Assembly: GCA_018667205.1 (NCBI GenBank) | Contig: JABIVN010000491.1 | Location: 1-17,283 of the forward strand | Reading direction: 5' to 3' | Source: Gammaproteobacteria bacterium | GTDB lineage: Bacteria > Pseudomonadota > Gammaproteobacteria > Pseudomonadales > Azotimanducaceae | Length of the DNA stretch: 17,283 nucleotides | The notes under the pieces: generated by a model | Database searches by the model: none | The model's input: only the letters and a program-made list of their open reading frames with translations | What the model was told of the DNA's origin: nothing | Translations under genes and position numbers: made by a program | Shown here: positions 1-4,113 of the stretch, piece after piece | Numbering within the stretch: the first letter of the stretch is position 1 | How the letters are laid out: each line of letters starts with the position of its first letter

Positions 1-2463
1 ATGCCGGACGAGTTGCGCAGCCAGATAGCGCCTATTCACGACATCATTAGATTGATGGGATTACCCATCTTAGTGGTAGACGAGGTCGAGGCAGATGACG
101 TCATAGGAACACTTGCTACCCAGGCGACAAAAAAGAAAATGTCTGTGCTAGTGTCAACGGGGGACAAGGATATGGCACAACTGGTGACACCCCACGTCAC
201 CTTGATTAATACCATGACGGGTATCTTTATGGATGGACCCGGAGTGGAAGCAAAGTTCGGCGTTCGTCCTGACCAGATCATTGACTATTTGGCGTTAGTG
301 GGTGACACCTCCGATAATATTCCTGGCGTCCCCAAGTGTGGTCCTAAAACCGCAGTAAAGTGGTTGCAGGCCTTTGACTCCCTGAATGGCGTGATGGCGA
401 ATGCCGCATCGGTGAAAGGTAAAGTTGGCGAATATCTCCGTGATTCACTGGAATTCCTGCCGATGTCCTACGAACTCGCGACGATCAAGAAAGACCTGGA
501 GCTTGAGTATCGTGTTGATGAACTTGCGCCTTCGGCGCCTGACGAAGATGGGCTACTAACCGTCTTTACGGAGCTTGAGTTTAGGCCCTGGGTCAATGAG
601 ATAAATATCGATGCCCCGCGTGAAGCTAACGAAAGCAACCTCATCCCCACCCTTGTGACTGATTACGAGACGGTATTTGACGAAGCTCAACTAAATATTT
701 GGGTGGAAAAACTGTCGAGCGCTGATACATTTGCTTTTGACACCGAAACAACGGCAATCGACTACATGGAAGCCAAACTTGTTGGCGTGTCATTTTGTTG
801 TGAAGCTGGAAAAGCGGCTTACGTGCCATTGGCACACGACTATCTTGGTGCACCCGTACAACTTCCTATGGATCTGGTGCTGGCGAAGCTAAGACCATTA
901 CTTGAGAATCCAGAACAAACAATCATAGGCCAAAATCTTAAGTACGATATCAGCGTAATGGCCAGGCATGGCGTGAGCATTAAGGCGAAGATCATCGACA
1001 CGATGCTGGAATCATACGTACTGAATTCTGTCGCGTCGCGCCACAATATGGACGATCTTGCACTCAACTATCTTGGCATCTCGACGGTACATTTTGAAGA
1101 CATCGCCGGCAAGGGCGCTAAGCAACTGACCTTTAACCAGATTGACCTAGCCAAGGCTGGACAGTATGCGGCGGAAGACGCTGACATAACCTTCCGGCTG
1201 CATCATGTTTTATGGCCAAAACTTCAGGCGGAAAGCAGATTGGCATCGGTCTATCAGGATATTGAAATACCTCTCGTGCCCATTCTCTCAGATGTGGAAC
1301 TCGGTGGTGTGTTGCTGGACGAGGAACAGTTGAATCTGCAAAGCAGGGAGCTGGAGAAACGCTTGTCAGAACTTGAGCAGGAAGCCTTTGGCCTGGCTGG
1401 AGAAGCATTCAACCTGGGTTCTCCAAAACAGTTGCAGGAGATTTTCTTTGAAAAATTAGGTTTGCCGATCATCAAAAAGACGCCCAAGGGCCAGCCTTCC
1501 ACTGCAGAACCGGTGTTACAGGAATTGGCGCTCGATTATCCTTTGCCCAAGGTGATTATGGAGTATCGCGGGCTGTCCAAGCTTAAATCAACCTATACGG
1601 ACCAGCTGCCTAAACAGATAGCGCGAAGCACGGGTCGAATACATACTTCTTATCATCAGGCCGTGACAGCGACGGGGCGACTTTCAAGCTCGAATCCTAA
1701 CTTGCAGAATATTCCCATCAGGACTCAGGAAGGCCGTCGCGTAAGGAGGGCCTTTATTGCACCAGAGGGGTGCAAGATAATGGCGGCTGACTACTCGCAG
1801 ATCGAGTTACGGATTATGGCTCACCTTTCGCAGGATGATGGTCTGATTCACGCATTTAACAACGGTCTCGATATTCATAAGGCGACAGCAGCGGAAGTAT
1901 TCGGAGTCGCCTTGTCGCAGGTATCTGACGATCATAGGAGAAGTGCTAAGGCGATTAACTTTGGCTTGATCTACGGTATGTCTGCATTTGGATTGGCGCG
2001 ACAGTTGGATATTTCCCGCGGTGCAGCACAGGACTATATCGATTTGTATTTTAACCGATACCCAGGTGTGAAGCATTACATGGACCAAACGCGTGCACTC
2101 GCTTCGGAGCAAGGCTATGTGGAAACTATTTTTGGGCGAAGGCTATATCTACCCGAAATCAAAGCTAGTAACTTTCAGCGCCGACAGGCCGCGGAGCGGA
2201 CTGCGATTAATGCGCCAATGCAGGGAACAGCGGCAGACATCATCAAGATGGCGATGATCACGGTACATAATTGGCTGGCTTCATCACACCTTGGCACACG
2301 TATGACCATGCAGGTTCATGATGAACTGGTTCTGGAAGTTCCCGAAGGCAATGTCCGTGAGGTCGCGAAAGGTGTTGAAGGCTTGATGTCCGGTGCGGTG
2401 GAGCTTTGTATTCCTTTAGTTGTTGAGGTCGGGATTGGGGACAACTGGGATGAGGCTCATTAG
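1..2463 (+). CDS. polA: DNA polymerase I, 5'-truncated by the window edge
   Basis: Repair and Okazaki-fragment polymerase with 5'-3' exonuclease, 3'-5' exonuclease and polymerase domains. The 820 visible residues begin at a Met that aligns with about residue 84 of the 928-residue E. coli protein, so roughly 83 N-terminal residues lie outside the window; base 1 is not the true start. The rest of the flap/5' nuclease domain (acidic VEADD, STGDKD, GDTSDNIPGV) occupies about 1-200. The proofreading domain has an intact DTET at 247-250 and AAEDADIT near 390, so it should be active. Polymerase motif A (DYSQIELR, D597), the O-helix (RRSAKAINFGLIYG, 646-659) and motif C (VHDEL, 772-776) are all present. 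The stop TAG at 2461 is followed by a strong terminator. Identity is clear. Confidence 0.98.
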   Translation: MPDELRSQIAPIHDIIRLMGLPILVVDEVEADDVIGTLATQATKKKMSVLVSTGDKDMAQLVTPHVTLINTMTGIFMDGPGVEAKFGVRPDQIIDYLALVGDTSDNIPGVPKCGPKTAVKWLQAFDSLNGVMANAASVKGKVGEYLRDSLEFLPMSYELATIKKDLELEYRVDELAPSAPDEDGLLTVFTELEFRPWVNEINIDAPREANESNLIPTLVTDYETVFDEAQLNIWVEKLSSADTFAFDTETTAIDYMEAKLVGVSFCCEAGKAAYVPLAHDYLGAPVQLPMDLVLAKLRPLLENPEQTIIGQNLKYDISVMARHGVSIKAKIIDTMLESYVLNSVASRHNMDDLALNYLGISTVHFEDIAGKGAKQLTFNQIDLAKAGQYAAEDADITFRLHHVLWPKLQAESRLASVYQDIEIPLVPILSDVELGGVLLDEEQLNLQSRELEKRLSELEQEAFGLAGEAFNLGSPKQLQEIFFEKLGLPIIKKTPKGQPSTAEPVLQELALDYPLPKVIMEYRGLSKLKSTYTDQLPKQIARSTGRIHTSYHQAVTATGRLSSSNPNLQNIPIRTQEGRRVRRAFIAPEGCKIMAADYSQIELRIMAHLSQDDGLIHAFNNGLDIHKATAAEVFGVALSQVSDDHRRSAKAINFGLIYGMSAFGLARQLDISRGAAQDYIDLYFNRYPGVKHYMDQTRALASEQGYVETIFGRRLYLPEIKASNFQRRQAAERTAINAPMQGTAADIIKMAMITVHNWLASSHLGTRMTMQVHDELVLEVPEGNVREVAKGVEGLMSGAVELCIPLVVEVGIGDNWDEAH

Positions 2464-2502
2464 CGCGAGCAATGACTGGTACTCCGATTTTACTTTTTTT
2501 TT

Positions 2503-2530
2503 AAAAGTGGAGTAACCTCCACTTTTGTTT
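2503..2530 (+). terminator. Intrinsic terminator after polA
   Basis: A perfect 10-bp stem, AAAAGTGGAG (2503-2512) with CTCCACTTTT (2517-2526), closes a TAAC loop and runs into TTTTGTTTTTG. It lies 40 bp after the polA stop on the same strand. The T-tract lies only on the plus-strand 3' side, so it should act on polA transcription. Confidence 0.85.
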
Positions 2531-2567
2531 TTGAACTTTGCTGTAATTAGCTGGTCATAGTAAATGT

Positions 2568-2704
2568 AAGCAATAACTTCGGTGATTTTCCCCCAAAAAG
2601 AACCGAAGTGTGGGCCCTGGTCGCACTCCCCCCTAGGGTGATCAGGGCCCACTTCACTTAGGTTGTAGGCTTTTTTTTCCGGGAATTTCCCCCCGGGATT
2701 TTTT
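2568..2704 (+). ncRNA. Candidate small regulatory RNA in the polA-engB gap (Spot 42/ErsA locus)
   Basis: No gene is visible here, but the plus strand folds into three consecutive hairpins. Hairpin 1 (2576-2609) has the 8-bp stem ACTTCGGT/ACCGAAGT, a tandem G-A mismatch (GA 2584-2585 facing GA 2600-2601), four more A-U pairs and a CCCCCA loop. Hairpin 2 (2610-2652) has GTGGGCCCTG/CAGGGCCCAC extended by five more pairs (two G-U) and loop ACTCCCCCCTAGG. A U-rich linker (2653-2676) follows, then terminator hairpin 3 (2677-2704). The polA terminator precedes the unit, so it would need its own promoter; TTGAAC (2531-2536) with CATAGT (2556-2561) is a weak candidate with a long 19-bp spacer. The position matches spf (Spot 42) in enterobacteria. 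I see no primary-sequence match to Spot 42. The 5' end is a guess, and the alternative is simply structured trailer sequence. Confidence 0.55.
2677..2704 (+). terminator. Intrinsic terminator of the candidate small RNA
   Basis: TTCCGGG (2677-2683) pairs with CCCGGGA (2692-2698, one G-U pair) around an AATTTCCC loop, followed by TTTTTT (2699-2704). It is a plus-strand intrinsic terminator with no coding gene directly upstream. It cannot serve engB, whose 3' end arrives on the other strand, and polA already has its own terminator 150 bp earlier. This implies an independent transcript. Confidence 0.7.
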
Positions 2705-2705
2705 A

Positions 2706-2776
2706 CAGCCTTAAATTTCCAGCGTTTAAATCTCCAGCCTTATGTTTCCAAAATTAGGTGTCCAAATCTAGGTTTT
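2706..2776. repeat. Degenerate 14-bp tandem array next to the engB stop
   Basis: Five units follow in register: CAGCCTTAAATTTC (2706-2719), CAGCGTTTAAATCTC (2720-2734, one base longer), CAGCCTTATGTTTC (2735-2748), CAAAATTAGGTGTC (2749-2762) and CAAATCTAGGTTTT (2763-2776). The first three are close; the last two share the leading CA and the T-rich end. The array fills the gap between the small-RNA terminator and the engB stop codon, which overlaps its last bases. Function unknown. Confidence 0.5.
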
Positions 2777-3371
2777 AAGGCCCAAGAGGTTCAAGCCACT
2801 CCGTCAGACTCTTTTCAAGTACTTTAATTCCCAGTTTCTTGGTTGCAGAGAATATCTGGACCGTTATTTCAGGTGGTAGATGTTTCCGAAGGCTTAAAAG
2901 ACCGTTCTGTTGACCTCCTCGTTTTAGCTTGTCGGCCTTGGTTAAAAGGATGTGTAACGGCAAACCACCATCCATCGACCATTCAATCATCATTTTGTCG
3001 AATTCCTTCAAGGGATGCCTAATATCCATCAACAGCACCATACCTCGGAGGCTTTTTCGGTCACGCAGATACTCATCCAGATGACGGTGCCAGTGCTCTT
3101 TTACAGAAATAGGAACTTTCGCATAACCGTATCCGGGTAAATCCACTAATTTGGTCTCGTCATCGAGGGTAAAAAAGTTGATCAACTGGGTTCGGCCCGG
3201 CGTCTTGCTGGTTCTCGCCAGCCCTTTCTGGTCGGTCAGTGCATTAATAGCGCTGGATTTACCTGCGTTCGAGCGCCCGCAAAAAGCGATCTCGGCTCCC
3301 TCATCTGCGGGACACTGAGACAGCGTCGCGGCGCTGGTGACAAATTTCGCTGTTTTGAACTTAATTGACAT
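2775..3371 (-). CDS. engB: Ribosome biogenesis GTP-binding protein EngB/YsxC
   Basis: Essential TrmE-Era-class GTPase that assists late assembly of the large ribosomal subunit. The 198 residues carry the whole G-motif set: P-loop GRSNAGKS (32-39), SKTPGRTQ switch I (55-62), DLPGYGYA (77-84), TKAD (144-147) and SATK (175-178). The ATG at 3371 was chosen because [14 protein letters not shown] matches the start of the family. The reading frame stays open for 52 codons upstream, but that stretch has no family similarity and would run into the cytochrome c4 promoter. No strong Shine-Dalgarno sequence is visible. It lies opposite polA across the non-coding 2464-2774 stretch and is divergent from cytochrome c4, a neighbourhood typical of pseudomonads. 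Confidence 0.95.
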
Positions 3372-3388
3372 TTTTGATCGTATTATCC

Positions 3389-3414
3389 CAACTGCAGTTG
3401 CTTTGTTATATAAT
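3389..3414 (+). promoter_or_regulatory. Putative cytochrome c4 promoter with overlapping palindrome
   Basis: A perfect -10 hexamer TATAAT lies at 3409-3414, about 95 bp before the cytochrome c4 start. A 12-bp perfect palindrome, CAACTGCAGTTG (3389-3400), covers most of the region where the -35 element would be; no good -35 is seen. This could be an operator or activator site serving both divergent genes (engB starts at 3371). No regulator can be named. Confidence 0.4.
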
Positions 3415-3510
3415 GCGACCCGCATTCTAGCACCCTCTTTACGATTAGAGCGTGCCTGGTGACACCAACAGTTGCCTTCACACAGAAAAGTGGACTTAAG
3501 AAGTGACGCT

Positions 3511-4113
3511 ATGAAAAAAATTATCATGTTTGCAGTACTCGCCCTTTTGGCGCCAATGACTTACGCAGAAGGTAACGCAGCGAAAGGCAAGGATCTTGCC
3601 GGAACCTGCCTTGCCTGCCATGGAGAAGTCGGCAACAGCCCCGCGCCAAGTTTCCCCAATTTAGCAGGTCAACACGCTAGTTACCTTCTTAAGCAATTAA
3701 TTGAAATTCAAAATGGTAAGCGGGAAGTGCTCACCATGACTGGCATTCTGGACAATTTATCTGAAAGCGATCTTTCAGATCTCGCAGCCTACTATGCAGG
3801 CCAACCGCGAAACCAAGGTGCGGCGAAAGAGGGTCTTGTCGAGTTGGGTGAAGCGATTTATCGGGCAGGTATACCGCGGAAGGATATCGCTGCCTGTACC
3901 GCTTGCCATTCGCCGACGGGTAACGGTAACGGTCCAGCGGTATTTCCTGCACTTGCAGGTCAATGGCCTGAATATATCGTTGCTCAGCTAAAAAACTTTC
4001 AGACTGGAGTGCGGCATAACGACGGAGATTCCAAGATGATGCGGACGACAGCGATGGATATGAACGAAAAGGAAATGACGGCTGTTGCCTCCTACCTCTA
4101 CGGACTTAAATAG
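3511..4113 (+). CDS. cc4: Di-heme cytochrome c4
   Basis: Periplasmic electron carrier with two cytochrome c domains in tandem, commonly passing electrons towards terminal oxidases. The 200-residue precursor starts with a Sec signal peptide (KK, hydrophobic core about 4-16, likely cleavage after TYA at residue 19). Heme-attachment motifs are CLACH at 33-37 and CTACH at 129-133, with candidate axial Met ligands at M76 and in the MMRTTAM stretch near the C terminus. The ATG at 3511 is preceded by TAAGAAG about 8 bases upstream; a longer frame from a TTG at 3472 would spoil the signal peptide. Length and duplicated-domain layout fit the family. dsbA follows on the same strand but is separated by a likely terminator, so the two need not be one operon. 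Confidence 0.95.

Follow-up and report, generated by a model that had tools for sequence, protein, structure and literature searches.

A predicted small RNA gene between polA and engB in an Azotimanducaceae genome, probably related to Pseudomonas ErsA

Does the 311-base gap between polA and engB in this gammaproteobacterial genome hold a small RNA gene of its own and, if so, to which known RNA is it related? The gap belongs to a stretch of 17,283 nucleotides (hereafter the window) from an assembly that is 69% complete and split into 614 contigs. It contains the polA terminator, two abutting hairpins, a U-rich linker and a second terminator (Table 1). An original prediction, made from the letters of the sequence, had read these elements as a small RNA placed like Spot 42 of enterobacteria. 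Its structural claims were recovered throughout. The polA terminator that it placed at 2503-2530 corresponds to a plus-strand terminator-like site at 2502-2527 with a T-run, and the one placed at 2677-2704 to a site at 2677-2698 with a T-run up to 2704; the two strong hairpins lie end to end at 2576-2609 and 2610-2652, and the U-rich linker is present as well. No gene had been seen between the terminators, and the four ORFs of at least 20 aa that touch 2540-2775 are indeed all on the minus strand.

Table 1. Coordinates of the features in and around the polA-engB gap (window numbering).
Feature	Position	Strand	Basis or remark
polA (DNA polymerase I), 3' part	1..2463	+	ORF of 820 aa; upstream neighbour
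polA intrinsic terminator	2502..2530	+	hairpin 2502-2527 then T-run
-35 element GAACTT of sigmaE/AlgU-type promoter motif	2533..2538	+	motif shared with family copies and ErsA loci
-10 element TCATA of sigmaE/AlgU-type promoter motif	2555..2559	+	motif comparison
Predicted small RNA, about 139 nt	2566..2704	+	folding, covariation, model R1; start (2565-2567) inferred from promoter
Hairpin 1, C-rich apical loop (CCCCC)	2576..2609	+	arms 2576-2589/2596-2609
Hairpin 2, C-rich loop (CUCCCCCC)	2610..2652	+	arms 2610-2627/2635-2652; intrinsic terminator in nearest relatives
Place of hairpin 2 U-tract	2650..2655	+	CACTTC in window; TTTTTT or TTCTTT in loci L002-L005
Further terminator, loop with UUUCCC	2677..2704	+	hairpin 2677-2698, T-run to 2704
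engB (yihA), convergent neighbour	2775..3371	-	downstream of predicted small RNA

The folding of this stretch is far from random. The span 2569-2704 folds better than 200 of 200 dinucleotide shuffles (z -4.75), and so does the core 2566-2657 (z -6.9; 0/200 as good). The number of terminators alone is weak evidence, since three plus-strand terminator-like sites were found in 2300-3600 against a mean of 1.4 (sd 1.5) in shuffles. Between the downstream terminator and engB (2706-2750) there is also a 16-nt near-repeat (CAGCCTTAAATTTCCA / CAGCCTTATGTTTCCA), in a stretch that by eye is absent from the nearest relatives.

Two features add to the original prediction: hairpin 2 is a terminator in nine relatives, as discussed below, and a motif GAACTT-N16-TCATA, of a form that we take to be that of sigmaE/AlgU promoters, occupies 2533-2559 immediately 3' of the polA terminator. 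Transcription from this motif would be expected to begin at about 2565-2567, in agreement with the start near 2568 that had been proposed. Of 30 family copies (with L006 included and L216, only 75 bases from a contig end, left out), all 30 are preceded by a relaxed form of the motif and 27 by the strict form, against shuffle means of 0.99 and 0.04; none was found on the other strand. Likewise, the twelve Pseudomonas ErsA loci gave 12/12 relaxed and 11/12 strict matches upstream and none on the other strand (shuffle means 0.39 and 0.02). We also scanned 80 named polA loci fetched by PolA alignment, thus picked by PolA and not by RNA, of which 52 have a convergent EngB and 47 a gap of 80-1100 nt. 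In these 47 gaps, which are not mutually independent, the strict motif was present on the polA strand in 27 and on the other strand in none (shuffle mean 0.11). Thirteen of the 27 are Pseudomonas or Pseudomonadaceae records, one (L066) is named Pantoea but looks alike, and the 13 others include Chromatiales, Sedimenticola, Methylococcaceae and Piscirickettsiaceae. As a side remark, the L066 record has a Pseudomonas-type promoter after polA, and L059, labelled Klebsiella pneumoniae, looks hisA-like by eye; both names may be wrong, because the regions after polA do not resemble those genera.

DNA homologues were found in 10 of 37 relatives (own genome excluded). Among 11 loci (L002-L012), nine have both neighbours and lie between polA and engB, while two are cut by contig ends and retain one neighbour each. 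With a covariance model built from 11 sequences of the window's family only (R1) and E values up to 1, the RNA was detected in 19 of 61 genomes of the family, counting the window's own. In 17 of these 19 it lies downstream of polA, 16 times on the polA strand and once (G700) on the opposite one; in G706 the RNA is 1 kb away, in G691 it is on a separate contig, and G690 has no polA match. Among 40 further family regions (G704 among them), 15 have less than 100 nt between polA and engB, and seven carry the strict motif.

Covariation of the stems in relatives, which had been set as one of the tests of the idea, is clearly present. We aligned with MAFFT the 30 of 50 model matches that belong to the window's family, leaving out the truncated L006, two L222 matches that repeat L214, the antisense matches in L206 and L010, the second L218 match and the non-family matches (ErsA loci, L029, L036-L038). 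For the 18 named pairs, 96.3% of the cells are paired, against 48.7% or less in slid-partner controls, which preserve the relatedness of the rows. Changes on both sides occurred in 12 of the 18 pairs (5.2 by shuffling) and in 37 cells (8.1 by shuffling), and 0 of 500 shuffles reached either value, a count that is not a probability, given that the rows share ancestry and were collected with a model that takes structure into account. Hairpin 1 contributes three of its seven pairs and hairpin 2 nine of its 11, and the loops remain C-rich although the stems vary. An earlier alignment of 11 rows had merely 2 of 23 pairs covarying, and it was the 30-row alignment that settled the question. Covariation, promoter motif and the loci of relatives thus bring comparative support to the proposal that the polA-engB gap contains a small RNA gene, and these sequence comparisons make it very probable that the predicted stretch encodes a genuine small regulatory RNA.

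The gene has also been multiplied. Tandem copies, each with its own promoter motif, are present in G704 (three; L246, 222-790), G715 (two; L214, 1501-1886) and G689 (two; L253, 317-813), the last being missed by the family-wide R1 search under its stricter filters. Further tandem pairs were seen in the genome of L028 (by RF01719), in L218 (by R1) and in L045 (by eye). At L036 and L037 (family f39) and L213 (G700), the RNA stands beside engB or polA on an unusual strand, and since these loci carry it on the opposite strand the gene seems to have been flipped in some lineages.

These data bear on whether the hairpins could instead be a 3' UTR product, with no promoter of their own, that forms the tail of the polA transcript and stabilises or terminates it. 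Such a reading would fit their position downstream of polA on the same strand, with the -35 element directly after the polA terminator. However, polA possesses its own terminator, the motif stands upstream of every one of the 30 family copies, and each tandem copy retains promoter plus hairpins. Moreover, 19 loci of the anti-hemB type (RF02837, discussed below) have EngB, convergent in all 19, and seven of them show no PolA in the available flank. We therefore regard a polA tail as improbable and proceed with an independent gene.

To which known RNA is this gene related? No Rfam family reaches its gathering score in the window, and weak matches (6C, anti-hemB, ErsA) were interpreted only alongside place, promoter and reciprocal models. 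The 6C match, at 29.4 bits against a cut-off of 47, was dismissed as a resemblance between RNAs with two C-loop hairpins. The original prediction had named ErsA at the same place, and ErsA is indeed located in the polA-engB gap according to PMC8575079; moreover, it appears to be related to the RNA of the window. Like ErsA (Pseudomon-1, RF01719), the predicted RNA lies between polA and the convergent engB on the polA strand and has a hairpin followed by a C-rich-loop hairpin in the same order. ErsA expression depends on sigma22, as stated in PMC7565897; for this sigma22 (AlgU) promoter the window offers a counterpart in its sequence, GAACTT-N16-TCATA. As for the covariance-model comparison with ErsA that had been proposed, RF01719 gives a full-length but weak alignment to 2551-2663, at 20.2 bits (E 0.082 in 321 bases), below its gathering score of 50. 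At E 0.01 it found no match in the window's own genome under stricter filters, and none in the 12 searched genomes of the window's family. Across the 293 genomes of the order it matched 26, 12 of them over the cut-off and all 12 in family f21, presumably the Pseudomonadaceae.

The reciprocal search is more telling. R1, which contains no f21 sequence, finds 11 of the 12 strong ErsA loci (not L023) at the ErsA coordinates, with 24-34 bits and E values of 6e-6 to 1e-3 over 78 kb; in the order as a whole it matched 13 of 293 genomes, own included. Six weak R1 matches (L039-L044, 27-35 bits) have neither polA nor engB within 1.5 kb; they may be fortuitous, or they may be additional copies of the RNA at other genomic sites. 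Both closing hairpins of the ErsA type align in the window, the last being the terminator in near relatives, with termination moved downstream in the window. In contrast to ErsA, the window lacks most of the 5' domain, including the GUGUUAAGUGUUGGCA-like stretch, so that only about 10 nt precede hairpin 1, and has an additional terminator hairpin. The spacing from promoter to model start is accordingly 9 nt in the window, 51-53 nt in 11 of 12 ErsA loci and 9-67 nt in the family. The RNA thus matches ErsA in place, strand, promoter motif and paired core, but not in the 5' domain. Because a model built from the window's family alone recovers 11 of the 12 ErsA loci, we consider it a divergent relative of ErsA, though not an ErsA as defined by Rfam, whose cut-off it does not reach. 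An independent small RNA gene related to Pseudomonas ErsA, acting by the sigmaE/C-loop mechanism proposed below, is in our judgement very likely to be the best explanation.

Spot 42 (RF00021) of enterobacteria and vibrios occupies the same gap, and follows polA in an Edwardsiella locus (L083, 125.6 bits). The window's RNA might accordingly be its positional counterpart or a diverged Spot 42, that is, a CRP-regulated RNA of carbon metabolism. The original prediction had already judged the sequence to be unlike Spot 42, and rightly so: Spot 42 is not among the 15 weak Rfam matches at 2460-2780 (E up to 10). In addition, a sigmaE-type promoter motif and two C-loop hairpins are unlike Spot 42, whose promoter class and structure differ from those of the window's RNA. 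We give this reading hardly any credence and retain kinship with ErsA. Two other RNAs are comparable by their description in PMC3771888. sX13 of Xanthomonas lies downstream of polA and uses C-rich-loop hairpins, which it requires, against G-rich mRNA sites; unlike the window's RNA, it is reported with three loops and Hfq-independent action. The alpha-r7 RNAs of alpha-proteobacteria share the polA locus and apical C-rich motifs but are reported with three stem-loops. The polA locus common to sX13, Spot 42 and alpha-r7 RNAs, as well as the C-rich loops of sX13 and alpha-r7 RNAs, had already been remarked in PMC3771888.

How far does such an RNA extend beyond the family? The C-terminal 200 aa of PolA have matches in 353 of 370 genomes of the class. 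We surveyed 80 regions, one per family, among about 155 listed PolA places; these were ranked by similarity to the window's PolA, towards which the sample leans. At Rfam cut-offs, anti-hemB RNA was found in five regions (L134, L147, L159, L177, L194), always downstream of polA and on its strand. Other matches were a c-di-GMP-I riboswitch (L177) and a TwoAYGGAY element (L152), and neither Spot 42 nor ErsA reached its cut-off in any of the 80. In the 370 genomes, the anti-hemB model RF02837 matched 198 at E 0.01 and 22 over the cut-off; the latter is the safer figure, and the former includes chance or unrelated matches, because 4 of 14 control genomes also match at E 0.01 (none over the cut-off). 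With R1, matches were obtained in 22 of the 80 at E 1 and in 16 at E 0.01; 21 of the 22 are on the polA strand.

Anti-hemB RNA of Burkholderia resembles the window's RNA in its C-rich-loop hairpins and terminator, and 24 of the 30 returned class loci (L272-L301) have PolA and/or a convergent EngB within 1.5 kb, the other six having neither. The RNA that Rfam calls 'anti-hemB' thus often resembles a small RNA adjacent to engB or polA, and its name, we presume, may only mirror the gene order in Burkholderia. The window scores 23.8 bits (E 0.0014) against RF02837, below the cut-off of 49.5, and unlike anti-hemB RNA it has no counterpart of the extra first hairpin with its CCUCCC loop. Leaving aside L281 and the six loci that have neither neighbour, we used the remaining 23 to build a second model (R2), which holds just 11 pairs because the middle hairpin aligned poorly. 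On the 80 regions R2 gave 34 matches at E 0.01, five of them in genomes of its own training set, and 33 of the 34 lie downstream of polA on its strand. Agreement in strand acts as a control, being invisible to the models, and it favours a real family. Among these 33 copies, 26 have the relaxed motif (shuffle mean 0.83) and seven do not; in 23 of the 26 it stands 18-31 nt before the model start, in three at an odd distance. The strict motif is present in 14 of the 80 regions. R2 also matched the strong ErsA loci given to it, 7/7 (of 12), at 19.6-23.4 bits (E 5e-4 to 5e-3). In G044, which carries a strong ErsA, RF02837 gave nothing at E 0.01. Within the window's family, only three of 20 sources (L253, L035, L246) had an R2 match at E 0.01; the window itself scored 16.8 bits (E 0.026), with its register shifted. 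Any connection between the window and the anti-hemB-like group would run through ErsA and R1, and this class-wide link is weaker than that with ErsA.

It is about an even call whether ErsA, anti-hemB RNA, many unnamed RNAs and perhaps sX13 form one old family of C-rich-loop RNAs with a sigmaE-type promoter. Such a family would be ancestral at the polA-engB place in the class and would have been repeatedly tandem-duplicated, flipped, shortened or lost, with Spot 42 replacing or joining it in some orders and the window showing one such remodelling, the transfer of termination to a new hairpin. In Alteromonas gracilis (L113, 3211-3470), we observed a Spot-42-like RNA of 22.9 bits, below the cut-off, where the anti-hemB model gives 25.0. 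Further along that gap come GAACTT-N16-TCTAT and a second hairpin, which has a T-run; these are perhaps two adjacent RNAs. As far as open-access papers show, no earlier work has joined ErsA and anti-hemB RNA under a common sigmaE-type promoter. Among those papers we found none naming sX13 together with ErsA, and a small RNA 'downstream of polA' only for sX13 (PMC3771888); the papers found on anti-hemB name the RNA in tables only, in the parts that were available.

The window departs from its nearest relatives at the 3' end. In nine of them (L002-L005 and L007-L011), a T-rich run follows hairpin 2, which serves as the terminator (L006 ends there), and no terminator like that at 2677-2704 was seen in these nine. 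In the window, CACTTC replaces the T-run and lengthens the stem of hairpin 2; without a U-tract, termination must pass to 2677-2704. The RNA should then be about 139 nt long, against about 95 nt in the nearest relatives. The loop of the downstream terminator supplies a third UUUCCC. As to its origin, a dispersed repeat was rejected, since 2658-2800 is single-copy in its own (69% complete) genome (best second match 21 bases, E 0.4); derivation by partial duplication from the start of the RNA itself (30 nt at 70% identity) is possible but weak. One might also suppose that the locus is decaying in this species, the RNA having been ruined by loss of the U-tract that the nine nearest readable relatives keep. 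The downstream terminator would then be a product of chance, of which one or two are expected per 1.3 kb, and the leader is short. Yet the promoter motif, the two stems and the two C loops have all been preserved, and only 25 nt further on stands a terminator with six consecutive T, which makes decay very improbable. Among the 30 aligned rows, L219 also has a poor U-tract.

What might such an RNA do? The conserved promoter motif suggests that envelope stress would release a sigmaE/AlgU-type sigma factor, which would drive transcription from GAACTT-N16-TCATA; the small RNA is thus apparently switched on by envelope stress. The transcript would fold into stable hairpins, a structure backed by covariation, that present C-rich loops (UCCCCC, CUCCCC) at their tips. 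By analogy with ErsA and sX13, these loops may base-pair with the G-rich Shine-Dalgarno regions of the mRNAs that the RNA targets and so reduce their translation, Hfq probably taking part. The targets would most likely be mRNAs of outer-membrane and envelope proteins, although C-rich loops by themselves specify no particular one. In the species of the window, transcription would stop at the downstream hairpin. The own genome encodes Hfq over the cut-off, and RpoE is represented by two fragments, which lie on different contigs and both score below the cut-off. ErsA with Hfq represses oprD translation, according to PMC7264166. Loop pairing is not the sole recorded mode of action, since in PMC8575079 ErsA is reported also to act via a U-rich domain and to activate anr.

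Our survey adds a shared sigmaE-type promoter motif to the polA-linked RNAs of many families of the class, and links polA-adjacent regulators of gammaproteobacteria that have mostly been described separately. If ErsA and anti-hemB RNA are one family, what is learned in Pseudomonas would also apply in Burkholderia and in uncultured marine groups, and genomic place would allow an envelope-stress small RNA to be predicted.
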